From a virus: DNA of 64,000 nucleotides. A program made the translations under genes and the position numbers. Every line of letters begins with the position of its first letter. Position 1 is the first letter of the stretch. The stretch spans positions 30,486 to 94,485 of the IMG/VR virus record IMGVR_UViG_3300043567_001187; one strand, 5' to 3'. The notes under the pieces are model-generated. The model saw only the letters and a list, made by a program, of their open reading frames with translations. It did not search any database and had not been told where the DNA came from. Positions 56,386-63,971 of the stretch are shown piece after piece.

Positions 56386-56717
56386 ACTAAATTTACTTTG
56401 GCTTCTTCAATAGTATTACCCATAATTTCTTGAGCAATATTTATTGCTTGGGATAAACTTTCTGTTTCTGTAATTTTTAATCCAGACTTTACATCATTAA
56501 TATGATACGAAGCATATACCCCATAAAATACATCGCTAAGTTCATAATTATGAAGCAGATAATCTTCATAGAACTCAAAAGAATCAGTATACCAATTTCC
56601 GTTTTCATCCTGAATTTCTTTTACAGTATCAACTAGAATAAATCTAAAATTAGGATGTGGGAAATCTGGCTTACTTTCAACGATGCCTCTATAAAACCTA
56701 TTAGGAAATGCTACCAT
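56382..56717 (-). CDS. Unknown protein, 111 aa
   Basis: RFYRGIVESKPDFPHPNFRFILVDTVKE and SEDVFYGVYASYHIND: small alpha/beta, no motif. Stop overlaps the kinase-like start. Confidence 0.5.
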   Translation of the reverse strand: MVAFPNRFYRGIVESKPDFPHPNFRFILVDTVKEIQDENGNWYTDSFEFYEDYLLHNYELSDVFYGVYASYHINDVKSGLKITETESLSQAINIAQEIMGNTIEEAKVNLV

Positions 56718-57036
56718 TGTCTAACCTATAGAGAGGAATAATTGTGTTAGGATCAAGATGTGGATTTTTTTGGAGTCTTAAATCAAAAAGGTCGCCCTTC
56801 TCATTAATTCTGGCCCAAGCAACTTCTTTATAATCGAGATTTTTAGTAATTTCTTCAACTAAATCTTGATTACAATTAAATAGTTCTTGATAAGAGTCTG
56901 CTAATTTTTGACGCAATCTTTTCAATTCATCTTTAGCATTAAGAATATTAAACTTAGTTAATTTCCAGTGTCCAGTATTAGAGGCATCCTCACAACACTG
57001 AAGAAGATGATCTAGGGGATTAGAATGTTCATTCAT
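56701..57036 (-). CDS. Unknown protein, 111 aa
   Basis: Helical with possible coiled coil (KDELKRLRQKLADSYQELFNCNQDLVEEI), then a short beta part. Preceded by a TTGACT-16-TATAAT promoter facing it. No family recognised. Confidence 0.5.
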   Translation of the reverse strand: MNEHSNPLDHLLQCCEDASNTGHWKLTKFNILNAKDELKRLRQKLADSYQELFNCNQDLVEEITKNLDYKEVAWARINEKGDLFDLRLQKNPHLDPNTIIPLYRLDNGSIS

Positions 57037-57061
57037 TTTTCAAACCCTTTGGTGTATATCT

Positions 57062-57089
57062 ATTATAGCGTTTACCATACAGGAGTCAA
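57062..57089 (-). promoter_or_regulatory. Sigma70-like promoter, divergent from the HNH gene
   Basis: TTGACT (57084-57089), 16-base spacer, TATAAT (57062-57067), 25 bases before the gene at 56701-57036. It lies just upstream of the plus-strand HNH start codon, overlapping the HNH Shine-Dalgarno. Confidence 0.6.
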
Positions 57090-57093
57090 GAGT

Positions 57094-57546
57094 ATGACAA
57101 AAAACTATACAATCCCTTACTTAAAAGTTATAGTCAAAAAATCCAAGTCCATTAGAGAAGTATTATCCAATCTCAATATGGCTACTGCCGGAGGTAATTA
57201 TCAAACCATTAAAAATAAAATTGCTGAATATAATATTGACACTTCTCATTTTACTGGTCAGGCATGGAATAAAGGGAAAAAACTAGGCCCAAAAAGATCA
57301 CTTGATGAATATTTGTCAAATCAAAAACCTATACAAAGTTGGAAACTTAAAAAAAGATTACTAAAGGAAGGATTGTTTGAATCAAAATGCTATAACTGTT
57401 TTAAAGATAGTTGGATGGATAAGCCAATTCCTCTTGAATTACATCATATTGATGGAAACAATACAAATAATAGTCTTTCTAATCTTAGTATATTATGCCC
57501 TAATTGCCATGCCTTAACTGATAATTATCGAGGTAAAAATAAATAG
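57094..57546 (+). CDS. HNH homing-endonuclease-like protein (only plus-strand gene)
   Basis: 150 aa from ATG 57094 (AGGAG 8 bases upstream; an ATG at 57025 would add an unrelated stretch). N-terminal SIREVLSNLNMATAGGNYQTIKNKI, then HNH core: SKCYNCF, LELHHIDGNNTNNSLSNLSILCPNCHAL with the zinc CxxC pairs and the H-N-H residues. This domain order matches free-standing phage homing endonucleases. Its TAG overlaps the last bases of the tRNA-Leu gene, in convergent orientation; it may be the mobility partner of the intron there. Confidence 0.85.
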   Translation: MTKNYTIPYLKVIVKKSKSIREVLSNLNMATAGGNYQTIKNKIAEYNIDTSHFTGQAWNKGKKLGPKRSLDEYLSNQKPIQSWKLKKRLLKEGLFESKCYNCFKDSWMDKPIPLELHHIDGNNTNNSLSNLSILCPNCHALTDNYRGKNK

Positions 57547-57813
57547 GAGTGGTGGGAGTCGAACCCACACTGGACGGATTTTCTTACCACTATAGTTTTC
57601 ACTACCATTTCTGTTTGTGGTCTGGACTTTACCTTAACCATAACTTTCGTTTTAGGTTCCTGCCATCAAGTCTCTACACCTTCATATTTCTATGCTTGGC
57701 TCGGTATTAGCATTTTAAAGCCTTCACCGAATTTGACAGGTTCTACTATAAAGATTTCTCCTTATGCACTCAATTTAATAAGTCCGTTGTCTCTGCCATT
57801 GGACTACACTCCC
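57544..57813 (-). tRNA. tRNA-Leu(UAA), interrupted by a group I intron
   Basis: Exons 57780-57813 (5') and 57544-57582 (3'). Acceptor GGGAGTG / CACTCCT, D-arm with GGCAGA loop, anticodon stem ACGGA / TCCGT, loop CTTAAAA once joined so the anticodon is TAA, T-arm GTGGG TTCGACT CCCAC. Short variable region, unlike most bacterial tRNA-Leu, as in several phage tRNAs. CCA is not encoded. The 5' exon ends CTT, so the intron sits between U34 and A35. Confidence 0.85.
57583..57779 (-). ncRNA. Group I intron in tRNA-Leu(UAA), 197 nt
   Basis: P1 pairs exon ACTT with intron GAGT, giving the U-G wobble at the 5' splice site; the intron ends in G before AAAATCC. Core elements: AAATTCGGTGAAGG / TACCGAGCCAAGC (P4 to P6 region), GTAGAGACTTGATGG (R/P7) and AAAGTCCAGACC (S/P7'). 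It resembles the group IC3 introns of cyanobacterial and plastid tRNA-Leu(UAA). No open frame inside. Confidence 0.85.
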
Positions 57814-57823
57814 ATAAAACACC

Positions 57824-57918: not shown

Positions 57919-58200
57919 TCAGCCGTTAGCATGGGCCTTGAGACGACGAACAACCTCTGCCATAGCCTCGATATTATCGACTGTCTTATTCGGCTTGGCA
58001 CGTTCCATAGATGGAAGTTCCATACCCTTCTTAGCCAGAGCGGCCTTTGTACGAGCATATCTAGCCATCGTACTAGCGACCTTCTGCCCAGTCTTGGACG
58101 CAATTTCCGCATAAGTCTTAGAAGAAAATACAGCCTCAAGAAACTGCTCATCATCACAACGAACACGCTTCTGCTTCTCACTTGTAATTACATCGCCCAT
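57919..58200 (-). CDS. Small helix-turn-helix DNA-binding protein
   Basis: 93 aa from ATG 58200 (GAGAGG upstream; the ATG at 58239 adds a weak extension). SKTYAEIASKTGQKVASTMARYARTKAAL looks like a helix-turn-helix with a basic recognition helix, followed by KKGMELPSMERAKPNKT. Possibly a transcription regulator of the early region. Confidence 0.55.
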   Translation of the reverse strand: MGDVITSEKQKRVRCDDEQFLEAVFSSKTYAEIASKTGQKVASTMARYARTKAALAKKGMELPSMERAKPNKTVDNIEAMAEVVRRLKAHANG

Positions 58201-58277
58201 AATCAACCTCTCAATCTTTGAAACCAAATTTACAACCAAGTTCGATCACGCGACCGAATCACTTGTGTTGTATCCTC

Positions 58278-62056: not shown

Positions 62057-62681
62057 AAAACCATAACTCCTCATTACTTTCACTTATCCATTTATTGCCA
62101 CTATATTCACAACTAAATTCTTTGCTAAATACCTTCCAATGAGGTTTAGTATCAAATTTTCTACTAATAAAACTCCCACCATCTAACCAAAATATTCTAT
62201 TATTAGGCTGAATAAAATACTGACCATCTCCAACAAAAACATGACCACATTTATGTCCTCCAGCCATTTCTCCATATCCATTATTATATTGTGGCCCTAA
62301 ACACCAGTCTAGCGTGAACATATACTGTGCTTTTTCTATAGTTTTATTTTTTAATAACAAATTTGCTGCTCTATTTTTTGTATACTGATTAATATTAACA
62401 GAAACATAATAACTTAAACTATCCCATAGTTGAATCCAATCTAAGGAATAGTTAGTTCCTCCATTTTGTATGGAGTGTAAATAGTGTATAGGAACCCTGG
62501 CGTGTTGACTACCATACTCTGTCATTATGCTAAATAAACCGCATCTTTGAGGTATGCTAGTATAACCAAAGACTTCTACCAAGGTTCTAGGGTTGCTAGA
62601 TTTTGGTTCTTCATTATAAAAAAAAGCATTATCTACATAAGCAGAGAATACTGGGACATCTATATTGAGATAATTACTCAT
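62031..62681 (-). CDS. Unknown protein, 216 aa
   Basis: Aromatic-rich with a DWCLGPQYNNGYGEMAGGHKCGHVFVGDGQYF stretch broken by H and C residues that might bind metal. Acidic C-terminus. No named family; follows endonuclease VII with an 8-base overlap. Confidence 0.5.
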   Translation of the reverse strand: MSNYLNIDVPVFSAYVDNAFFYNEEPKSSNPRTLVEVFGYTSIPQRCGLFSIMTEYGSQHARVPIHYLHSIQNGGTNYSLDWIQLWDSLSYYVSVNINQYTKNRAANLLLKNKTIEKAQYMFTLDWCLGPQYNNGYGEMAGGHKCGHVFVGDGQYFIQPNNRIFWLDGGSFISRKFDTKPHWKVFSKEFSCEYSGNKWISESNEELWFYEFKEKMD

Positions 62682-63024
62682 ATTTTCTATTCCTTGATGC
62701 TATCAAGTAATTTACTGCTTTTATAACACTATCTAAATTATCTCCTAGTTTTCCAAGACCAGTATTGCAAGGTTCGCAGATCCAACCCCTAAAACTATCA
62801 TCAGAATGATCATGATCCAAACACCATTTGTATGGAACTTTTCCACAAAGTTCACAAAATTCTGGTTTTGGTGGGGCAGTTTTATGTAATCCACTTCGTA
62901 TCTTAGAATGTTTTTTAACACACTTTCTACATCTACTATCTAGATTATCTTTGTACATACTGTGTTTAGGAAAACTTTTAAGGTTTTTTCTTTCACCACA
63001 GTAGGTACAAATTTTTCTAGGCAT
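62674..63024 (-). CDS. Endonuclease VII (Holliday junction resolvase)
   Basis: 116 aa. KICTYCGERKNLKSFPK and CRKCVKKH zinc-binding start; FCELCGKVPYKWCLDHDHSDDSFRGWICEPCNTGLGKLGDN is the T4 gp49 catalytic core with the HxDH residues and paired cysteines. Cuts branched DNA before packaging. The gene starts 23 bases after tmRNA and has no clear Shine-Dalgarno. Confidence 0.9.
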   Translation of the reverse strand: MPRKICTYCGERKNLKSFPKHSMYKDNLDSRCRKCVKKHSKIRSGLHKTAPPKPEFCELCGKVPYKWCLDHDHSDDSFRGWICEPCNTGLGKLGDNLDSVIKAVNYLIASRNRKYE

Positions 63025-63047
63025 TATGGAGATGGTAGGAGTTTAAG

Positions 63048-63402
63048 TGGAGGCGGCGGGTTCTGCCCCCGCGTGTTGTGATATTTCTAATTACATCTTC
63101 TACAAGTTTATTTTATTCATGAGTTAAATTGGATTACAGAATAAACAAGACTAATCCAATCTTACCAACTTCTCTTAACCTACAACCCGTTGGATATTGT
63201 AAGTGCAGAGGGATTTGACGACAGACTTTTGATCGCTACCCTCATTCGCAATCTCAGTCTGTTACTGCCCTTTTTTGTCAGGCAGCAAGTGCTAACTGAT
63301 TTGTGCCAGTTAAAGCATTTGGTAGATTTTTATAGTGGCCTTTCCACCAACCACTACTTGCTAACATAATCTTCTATATCCAATCGATTCTATTTCGCCC
63401 CC
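63048..63402 (-). ncRNA. ssrA: tmRNA (ssrA)
   Basis: 355 nt. Acceptor GGGGGCG / CGCCTCC (7 bp) with A73; D-like arm AATCGATTGGAT, as in TTCGACGGGAT of known tmRNAs; first pseudoknot TAGTGG .. CCACTA; reading frame ending ALTGTNQLALAA then TGA; 3' region ACTTGTAGAAGATG similar to the E. coli sequence before the T-arm. The T-stem GCGGG / CCCGC is intact but its loop is GGCAGAA, not TTCxANT. CCA not encoded. Rescues stalled ribosomes and tags peptides for proteolysis. Confidence 0.85.
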
Positions 63403-63971
63403 TATTTTATAGTACACCTTTTACACTTATTGTCAACCGTCTTGTTAGACTCTACAGAATGTCTATATACTCCCATAACTATTCCACTAGTAGTTCCCAC
63501 ATTTAGTGAACGTACACTACCATAATGAGGAATGGTCAAAATCACATTAGCACGATCTAAAATCAGATTTGATAATCCTTTGCTTTCTTCTCCAAAAATA
63601 AATATTGGCTCAAGAGCATTATAGAACTTGTAGTGGAAAAGATTAATGGTTTTGTCATCATACTCCGGAATATTATTTTCTATTGCAATAAGGGTTCGTC
63701 CAGAACATTGCAAAAGAAAAGACTCTTCGTCTTTATGGTGATATATAGGAGTATAATTATGTGTTCCTACGCTACCTCTTTTATCCCACTTCTTTTTGCC
63801 AACATAGTGTACACTTCTAAATCCAAAAAAGTTAGCATTACGAACCATTGTGCTAAGATTAAAGTCTCCATTTATATTAATCATAGCAACACTGGCTGGT
63901 ATACTAGTGCTATGACAATAATTAGCAATATCTGGAATCTCTAGTTCTTTCAGACTATCTATCACATTCAT
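63402..63971 (-). CDS. TrmH/SpoU-type RNA 2'-O-methyltransferase
   Basis: 189 aa. NGDFNLSTMVRNANFFGF (motif 1), IFIFGEESKGLSNLIL (motif 2) and LTIPHYGSVRSLNVGTTSGIVM (motif 3), the SAM trefoil knot. It would methylate tRNA or rRNA ribose. It ends 1 base into the tmRNA 5' end. The substrate cannot be told from sequence alone. Confidence 0.85.
   Translation of the reverse strand: MNVIDSLKELEIPDIANYCHSTSIPASVAMININGDFNLSTMVRNANFFGFRSVHYVGKKKWDKRGSVGTHNYTPIYHHKDEESFLLQCSGRTLIAIENNIPEYDDKTINLFHYKFYNALEPIFIFGEESKGLSNLILDRANVILTIPHYGSVRSLNVGTTSGIVMGVYRHSVESNKTVDNKCKRCTIK
63409..63436 (-). promoter_or_regulatory. Promoter placed for tmRNA start
   Basis: TTGACA (63431-63436), 16-base spacer, TACTAT (63409-63414). 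Six bases separate the -10 from G1 of tmRNA at 63402, the normal distance to a transcription start. Located inside the end of the methyltransferase gene. Confidence 0.6.

Follow-up and report, generated by a model that had tools for sequence, protein, structure and literature searches.

Results

The Split tRNA Gene and Its Neighbours

The window, the whole 64,000-nt stretch of viral DNA analysed here, comprises bases 30486-94485 of an IMG/VR record of 94,485 bases. On its minus strand, at 57544-57813, lies a tRNA-Leu(UAA) gene in which exons of 34 and 39 nt surround a 197-nt insert. With introns allowed, ARAGORN finds a single tRNA gene in the window, a tRNA-Leu(taa) at complement 57543-57814 whose 197-nt intron falls between gactt and aaaat; without the intron option it finds 0 tRNA genes in the window. 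As placed by sequence and ARAGORN, the 5′ exon (57780-57813, minus strand) ends in ...ACGGACTT, with U33 and U34 as its last residues, and the 3′ exon (57544-57582, minus strand) starts with AAAATCCGT; CCA is not encoded. Given only the joined exons, ARAGORN again reports tRNA-Leu(taa), with the anticodon UAA in a 7-nt loop.

Convergent with the tRNA gene is an HNH endonuclease gene at 57094-57546 on the plus strand, identified by phrog_10822 and by alignments, which encodes 150 aa (173 aa if read from an ATG at 57025) and whose stop codon reaches 3 nt into the tRNA 3′ end. In a three-way alignment with two related loci (L015 and L016) similarity starts near 57050, and the leader that precedes the gene (57050-57093, plus strand), with its AT-rich block and AGGAG, is conserved. 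The protein matches phrog_10822 HNH with an E value of 1.5e-46, is 52% identical to an ORF inside the tRNA-Leu(UAA) intron of the huge phage LR756511, and contains the residues that are invariant in HNH alignments (C99, C102, H118, N130, C135, C138, and H139, that is, the HNH motif and zinc cysteines). By Pfam models it is divergent, the HNH families scoring below their curated cut-offs (PF13392, 18.9 versus 24.8 bits; PF01844, 16.2 versus 21.4 bits). AlphaFold2, given ten sequences, predicts a helical N-terminal part, with the HNH residues in the C-terminal part (mean pLDDT 87.5, pTM 0.57). A PDB sequence search with the protein returned 0 matches, and a PDB fold search with the model returned sub-significant matches only, HNH nucleases being among the top ones.

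Elsewhere in the window, a tmRNA gene lies at 63045-63402 on the minus strand (RF00023, 77.9 bits; not called by ARAGORN), and its tag appears by eye to read ...ALTGTNQLALAA-stop. An Endonuclease VII-like ORF (62674-63024, minus strand; phrog_2633) starts about 20 nt past the tmRNA 3′ end; it is another nuclease gene beside an RNA gene, and F-CphI, considered in the Discussion, is also of the EndoVII type. The ORF at 63402-63971 (minus strand), which meets the tmRNA 5′ end, has no PHROG match and by eye resembles SpoU/TrmH RNA methyltransferases.

The Insert Is a Group I Intron

The insert (57583-57779, minus strand) is a 197-nt group I intron without an ORF, as established by RF00028, ARAGORN, covariation, and the MFE fold, and it adds one member to a type of intron already known. 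The covariance-model check that the sequence-only reading had proposed gives a match in a local search (Rfam Intron_gpI, RF00028; 61.7 bits against a gathering threshold of 50, E 2.7e-15, at 57601-57789, minus strand). A whole-window Rfam search at gathering thresholds with fast filters had passed without an intron match, which we put down to a filter effect once the local match was seen. The splice-site signs agree with this assignment: U is the last residue of the 5′ exon and G (57583) that of the intron, and the IGS GAGU (57771-57768) pairs with exon ACUU by way of a U·G pair. P3 joins 57740-57735 to 57664-57659, and P7 joins 57672-57669 to 57628-57625, all on the minus strand.

Comparison across 100 intron representatives bears out the fold. 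The named helices of the window intron are paired in 78-100% of cells, against means of 0.23-0.47 in slid controls, with P1 paired in 96% of cells. Double changes occur at all pairs of P2, P3 (6/6), P5 (3/3), P6a, and P9b, at 6/7 pairs of P8, and at 3/6 pairs of P4; P7 is without variation, in part an effect of the search pattern, which contains the 3′ strand of P7. The intron folds with a minimum free energy of -41.8 kcal/mol (z -2.8), in a structure that recovers P2-P6a, P8, and P9. The intron is probably self-splicing. Relatives for which the tRNA caller returned tRNA-Phe(gaa), tRNA-Tyr(ata), tRNA-Ser(aga), tRNA-Stop(tta), and the like were rejected as separate kinds, the splice points having been mis-set; in those examined, tRNA-Leu(UAA) fits once an exon-final U and a terminal G are required, L270 doing so with a poor arm.

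The sequence-only reading had thus rightly rebuilt a tRNA with anticodon UAA from the exons, placed the insertion between U34 and A35 (the position known from cyanobacteria and plastids), and recognised an ORF-less group I intron in a phage tRNA. It missed the HNH gene that touches the tRNA, and the plus/minus polymorphism and anticodon-stem pattern described below.

The tRNA Body and the Spread of the Intron Type

ARAGORN assigns the tRNA a 73-nt class I body, in agreement with the short variable region noted earlier; the long variable arm of the canonical bacterial (class II) tRNA-Leu is absent. The body is of phage type; Prochlorococcus phage P-SSM7 has an intronless 89% match to it, annotated as tRNA-Leu (codon UUA). 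Among the matches listed, the bacterial intron-bearing tRNA-Leu(UAA) genes are class II in 113/113 cases (84-92 nt), and the distinct viral ones comprise 76 of class II and 32 of class I. Since the window body is class I, it was not captured whole from a normal bacterial leucine tRNA, as the sequence-only reading had also held.

The supposed rarity of such an intron did not survive wider searching. The same intron type occupies the same site in at least about 120 matches in IMG/VR, and likewise in bacterial genomes; both scans used a pattern spanning J8/7 to the 3′ exon, and the counts are lower bounds, not frequencies. Of the distinct viral introns collected among the matches listed, 71/109 are 185-225 nt long. 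The bacterial matches listed span eight phyla (Pseudomonadota, Bacteroidota, Acidobacteriota, Bacillota, Planctomycetota, Chloroflexota, Bdellovibrionota, and Armatimonadota), in a set where some MAG contigs may be viral. BLAST places inserts at this site in the huge phages LR756501 (205 nt) and LR756511 (700 nt), in Agrobacterium phage Atu_ph07 (278 nt), and in a Bradyrhizobium plasmid (204 nt).

Other phages (L004, L008, L007, L012, and L013) also have DNA resembling the core of the window intron, either within protein genes or between them. It occurs at capsid genes in Pelagibacter-type phages, at DNA polymerase and helicase genes of crAss-like type, and in Pseudoalteromonas phage pYD6-A; two Intron_gpI matches were confirmed in L008 and two in L012. 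A tRNA-Arg(CCT) gene of a Microcoleus phage (L006, 1813-2098) has a 213-nt insert with a similar core.

The HNH Family Keeps Company with tRNA-Leu(UAA)

To collect HNH loci, we searched IMG/VR with the window HNH protein and its alignment, imposing no tRNA criterion, and took the best 80 of 496 relatives; more distant kin may behave otherwise. In 76/80 of these viral loci a tRNA-Leu(UAA) gene encloses or adjoins the HNH gene, all but one within 121 nt, whereas, when intronless tRNA-Leu(UAA) genes of viruses were collected with an arm-neutral pattern, 2/108 had such an HNH gene. The HNH gene sits inside the intron in 22 of the 76, beside an ORF-less intron in 18, and beside an intronless tRNA gene in 36. 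Within introns it is found at L1 in sense, at L6 in sense, and at L6 in antisense (two of the last were set by reading the flanks), which implies at least three separate insertions; together with the several arrangements of free-standing genes, these positions indicate that the pairing of HNH and intron arose repeatedly. On a tree of 84 HNH sequences, of which 41 branches are starred, the arrangement must change 23 times. Among the matches listed in the pattern set, 46/78 distinct viral introns have no HNH gene within 400 nt.

Alternative States within One Phage Lineage

The locus is flanked by a conserved 106-aa gene (57919-58239, minus strand), which served as a probe for the same locus in 80 related contigs, and by a 111-aa gene (56701-57036, minus strand) that directly follows the tRNA in relatives without HNH (L148, L170). 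Throughout these 80 same-synteny loci every called tRNA is tRNA-Leu(UAA), with or without intron and of class I or II. (L014 and L149 are one contig, equal to the window.) Class I and class II bodies have been swapped at the same locus among the related phages (L148-L227).

L163 has the window tRNA at 98.6% identity, with an intact arm, ACGGACTTAAAATCCGT, and neither intron nor HNH. L148 and L150 are 98.6% identical to the window downstream and carry at the locus itself a different, class II tRNA, again without intron and without HNH. In L170 and L171 the tRNA and intron are 99.6% identical to those of the window across flanks of 87.5% and 81.5% identity; HNH is absent and the next gene directly follows. 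Recent transfer would account for the states of L170 and L148. L015, found through its HNH (93%), is intronless with the arm AGGCACTTAAAATGCCT, and its alignment is interrupted precisely at the two intron boundaries; L163 likewise has a precise empty site, and intronless alleles occur in other kin.

Anticodon Stems beside HNH Genes

The proposed HNH target, defined by comparison, is the intronless anticodon-arm core RGACTTAAAATCY, whose 5′ half (ACGGACTT) lies at 57780-57787 and whose 3′ half (AAAATCCGT) lies at 57574-57582, both on the minus strand. A scan of the window for this core found 0 exact sites, and mismatched sites are no more frequent than chance. Among intronless tRNA genes the core is present in 5/32 with an HNH gene and in 102/133 without one (Fisher p=2e-10), the core having been chosen after the data were seen, so that this and the following p-values describe a contrast and not a preregistered test. 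The depletion holds in class II alone (5/19 versus 87/111, p=1.7e-5) and in class I alone (0/13 versus 15/22, p=5.9e-5), and when distinct arms (4/30 versus 32/54, p=6e-5) or tRNA-body clusters (4/27 versus 78/104, p=1.4e-8) are counted. The HNH-free intronless sample combines the arm-neutral pattern scan with the neighbour-gene set; the background pattern demands the loop CTTAAAA and, through its spacing, class II bodies, and a loop-matched 11-mer test still gives p=5.8e-6. The stem statistics exclude loci found by the intron pattern, AAAATCC, since those letters are set by the pattern itself.

Where the core is altered, stem pairing is kept, fully in 21/27 arms and with four pairs in 6/27. 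Intron-bearing tRNAs show the complementary state: R29 G30 A31 is present in 35/35 distinct examples from HNH-selected loci. Since P1 needs exon ACUU, what is seen in intron-bearing genes is to be expected in part and is weak alone; no P1 constraint enters the comparison of intronless genes with and without HNH. Across independent HNH pairs, intron presence tracks the intact core in 9-12 of 14 (about 10.7), with 0 against (p about 0.001), and the contrast extends to near-twin HNHs, L044 having an intron and a CCGGA arm and L407 no intron and a GGGAC arm. Five intronless loci with HNH keep the core (L372, L379, L383, L385, and L421); their enzymes could be relaxed, dead, or differently aimed. 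In another intronless locus with an adjacent HNH gene, L166, CPNRH replaces CPNCH, and this HNH may be inactive.

Discussion

We propose that the intron and the adjacent free-standing HNH gene work as a pair at the tRNA anticodon arm, in a collaborative homing system whose tRNA-specific HNH family and two apparent forms of immunity would make it a new form of that process; judging from comparative sequence evidence, we put the probability of this reading at about 0.78. The HNH protein would cut intronless tRNA-Leu(UAA) genes at the core of the anticodon arm. During a mixed infection the break would be repaired from the intron-bearing phage, and the intron, its flanking exons, and often the HNH gene would be carried across. 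Because the intron splits the HNH target, it would protect its own genome, and because it would be spliced from the RNA, a tRNA could still form. Sister loci without an intron would have a second form of protection, an anticodon stem altered in such a way that pairing is kept and the core is no longer matched. In other words, a genome that carries an arm-cutting HNH would have to hide its own arm, either by an intron or by a stem change. Cleavage, protection, and transfer by the HNH-intron pair are what we infer from these patterns. One might suppose instead that HNH-bearing loci with intact arms gain introns quickly, but that path also needs the arm as the target.

It is improbable, in our estimation, that the phage simply picked up a split tRNA gene with an immobile intron, the neighbouring HNH gene being incidental. 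HNH genes are common in phages, many of the introns listed from bacteria and viruses lack one nearby, and the same intron resides in tRNA-Leu(UAA) of bacteria from eight phyla, all of which such passive inheritance would accommodate. It does not accommodate an HNH gene at tRNA-Leu(UAA) in 76/80 loci (best 80 of 496) against 2/108 among pattern-drawn tRNA loci, nor the plus/minus polymorphism within one lineage, with tRNA and intron 99.6% identical across flanks of 81-88% identity, nor a class I body where 113/113 of the bacterial intron-bearing tRNAs listed are class II. Scarcely better placed is the idea that the HNH enzyme homes to the tRNA region with a target other than the anticodon arm, so that arm differences merely reflect the arrival of unrelated tRNA genes through recombination. 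The diversity of arms and the exchange of class I and class II bodies at one locus would suit it; the core is nevertheless depleted in each tRNA class taken alone, among distinct arms, among body clusters, and between independent sister pairs, and an enzyme cutting elsewhere leaves unexplained why the intron always splits the core.

Phage tRNAs counter anticodon nucleases, and one could imagine that a tRNA-Leu with a short variable loop escapes the tRNA nucleases of the host or of rival phages, the intron or the stem change shielding RNA and not DNA. There is a parallel in the defence system Septu, which has tRNA-Tyr as its substrate and from which phage T6 escapes with the aid of SegB, a homing endonuclease (PMC13096335). 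An anti-defence role of this kind strikes us as very unlikely here, since it leaves unexplained both the association with HNH and the absence of the core specifically at HNH-bearing loci, and since the spliced RNA has an ordinary arm.

The collaborative homing that we favour has a known counterpart. The term was reportedly coined from a single psbA case in cyanophages. That case pairs F-CphI, a free-standing EndoVII-type endonuclease, with the psbA intron of cyanophage S-PM2, and cleavage was shown (PMC6083498, citing Zeng et al. 2009); there too the endonuclease gene adjoins the intron-bearing gene, kin have intronless alleles, the intron prevents self-cleavage, and intronless relatives are the target. 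For the present system the last two points are suggested indirectly, by the depletion of the core at intronless loci with HNH. The psbA system concerns one photosynthesis gene and an EndoVII-type enzyme, whereas the present one involves a tRNA gene, an HNH enzyme, and many phage and some bacterial loci; the same HNH family also lies inside the intron at three places, and a second immunity by stem change is proposed. T4 SegB likewise has a free-standing gene next to phage tRNA genes and favours the inheritance of the region in which it lies, but it is a GIY-YIG enzyme of intronless homing with a target in a tRNA intergenic region (PMC2988022), whereas the window enzyme belongs to the HNH family and has an intron beside it. 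By analogy, intronless homing (PMC2988022) may be regarded as the intron-free counterpart of the tRNA collaborative homing proposed here.

The intron itself shares with the tRNA-Leu(UAA) intron of cyanobacteria and plastids its tRNA, its group I type, and its insertion between U34 and A35; it differs in being 197 nt long, in residing in a phage and in a class I tRNA body, and in having an HNH partner. A known in-intron homing endonuclease of a different tRNA similarly has the anticodon region as its target and a group I intron as its partner. That enzyme is a nuclease of the PD-(D/E)XK type, and it has a single in-intron arrangement, unlike the window HNH family; we know of no stem-change immunity associated with it. 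In a search of open-access literature we found no description of phage tRNA-Leu(UAA) introns paired with such an HNH.

These loci amount to a large natural experiment, in which one endonuclease family and one tRNA site are found in the main combinations of endonuclease, intron, and target, several of them within one lineage. How an intron and an endonuclease with a common target come together as a mobile intron becomes testable, and the variation of phage tRNA anticodon stems is offered a reason. For annotation, the consequence is that many phage tRNA genes are missed when the intron option is not used. We lean, less firmly than toward the homing pair itself, to the wider view that turnover of the tRNA-Leu(UAA) gene in phages is driven by a widespread HNH family specialised on its anticodon arm, with immunity gained by an intron or by compensatory re-pairing of the stem. 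If this is true, phage tRNA sequences would be shaped by a DNA-cutting arms race, beyond codon supply alone.
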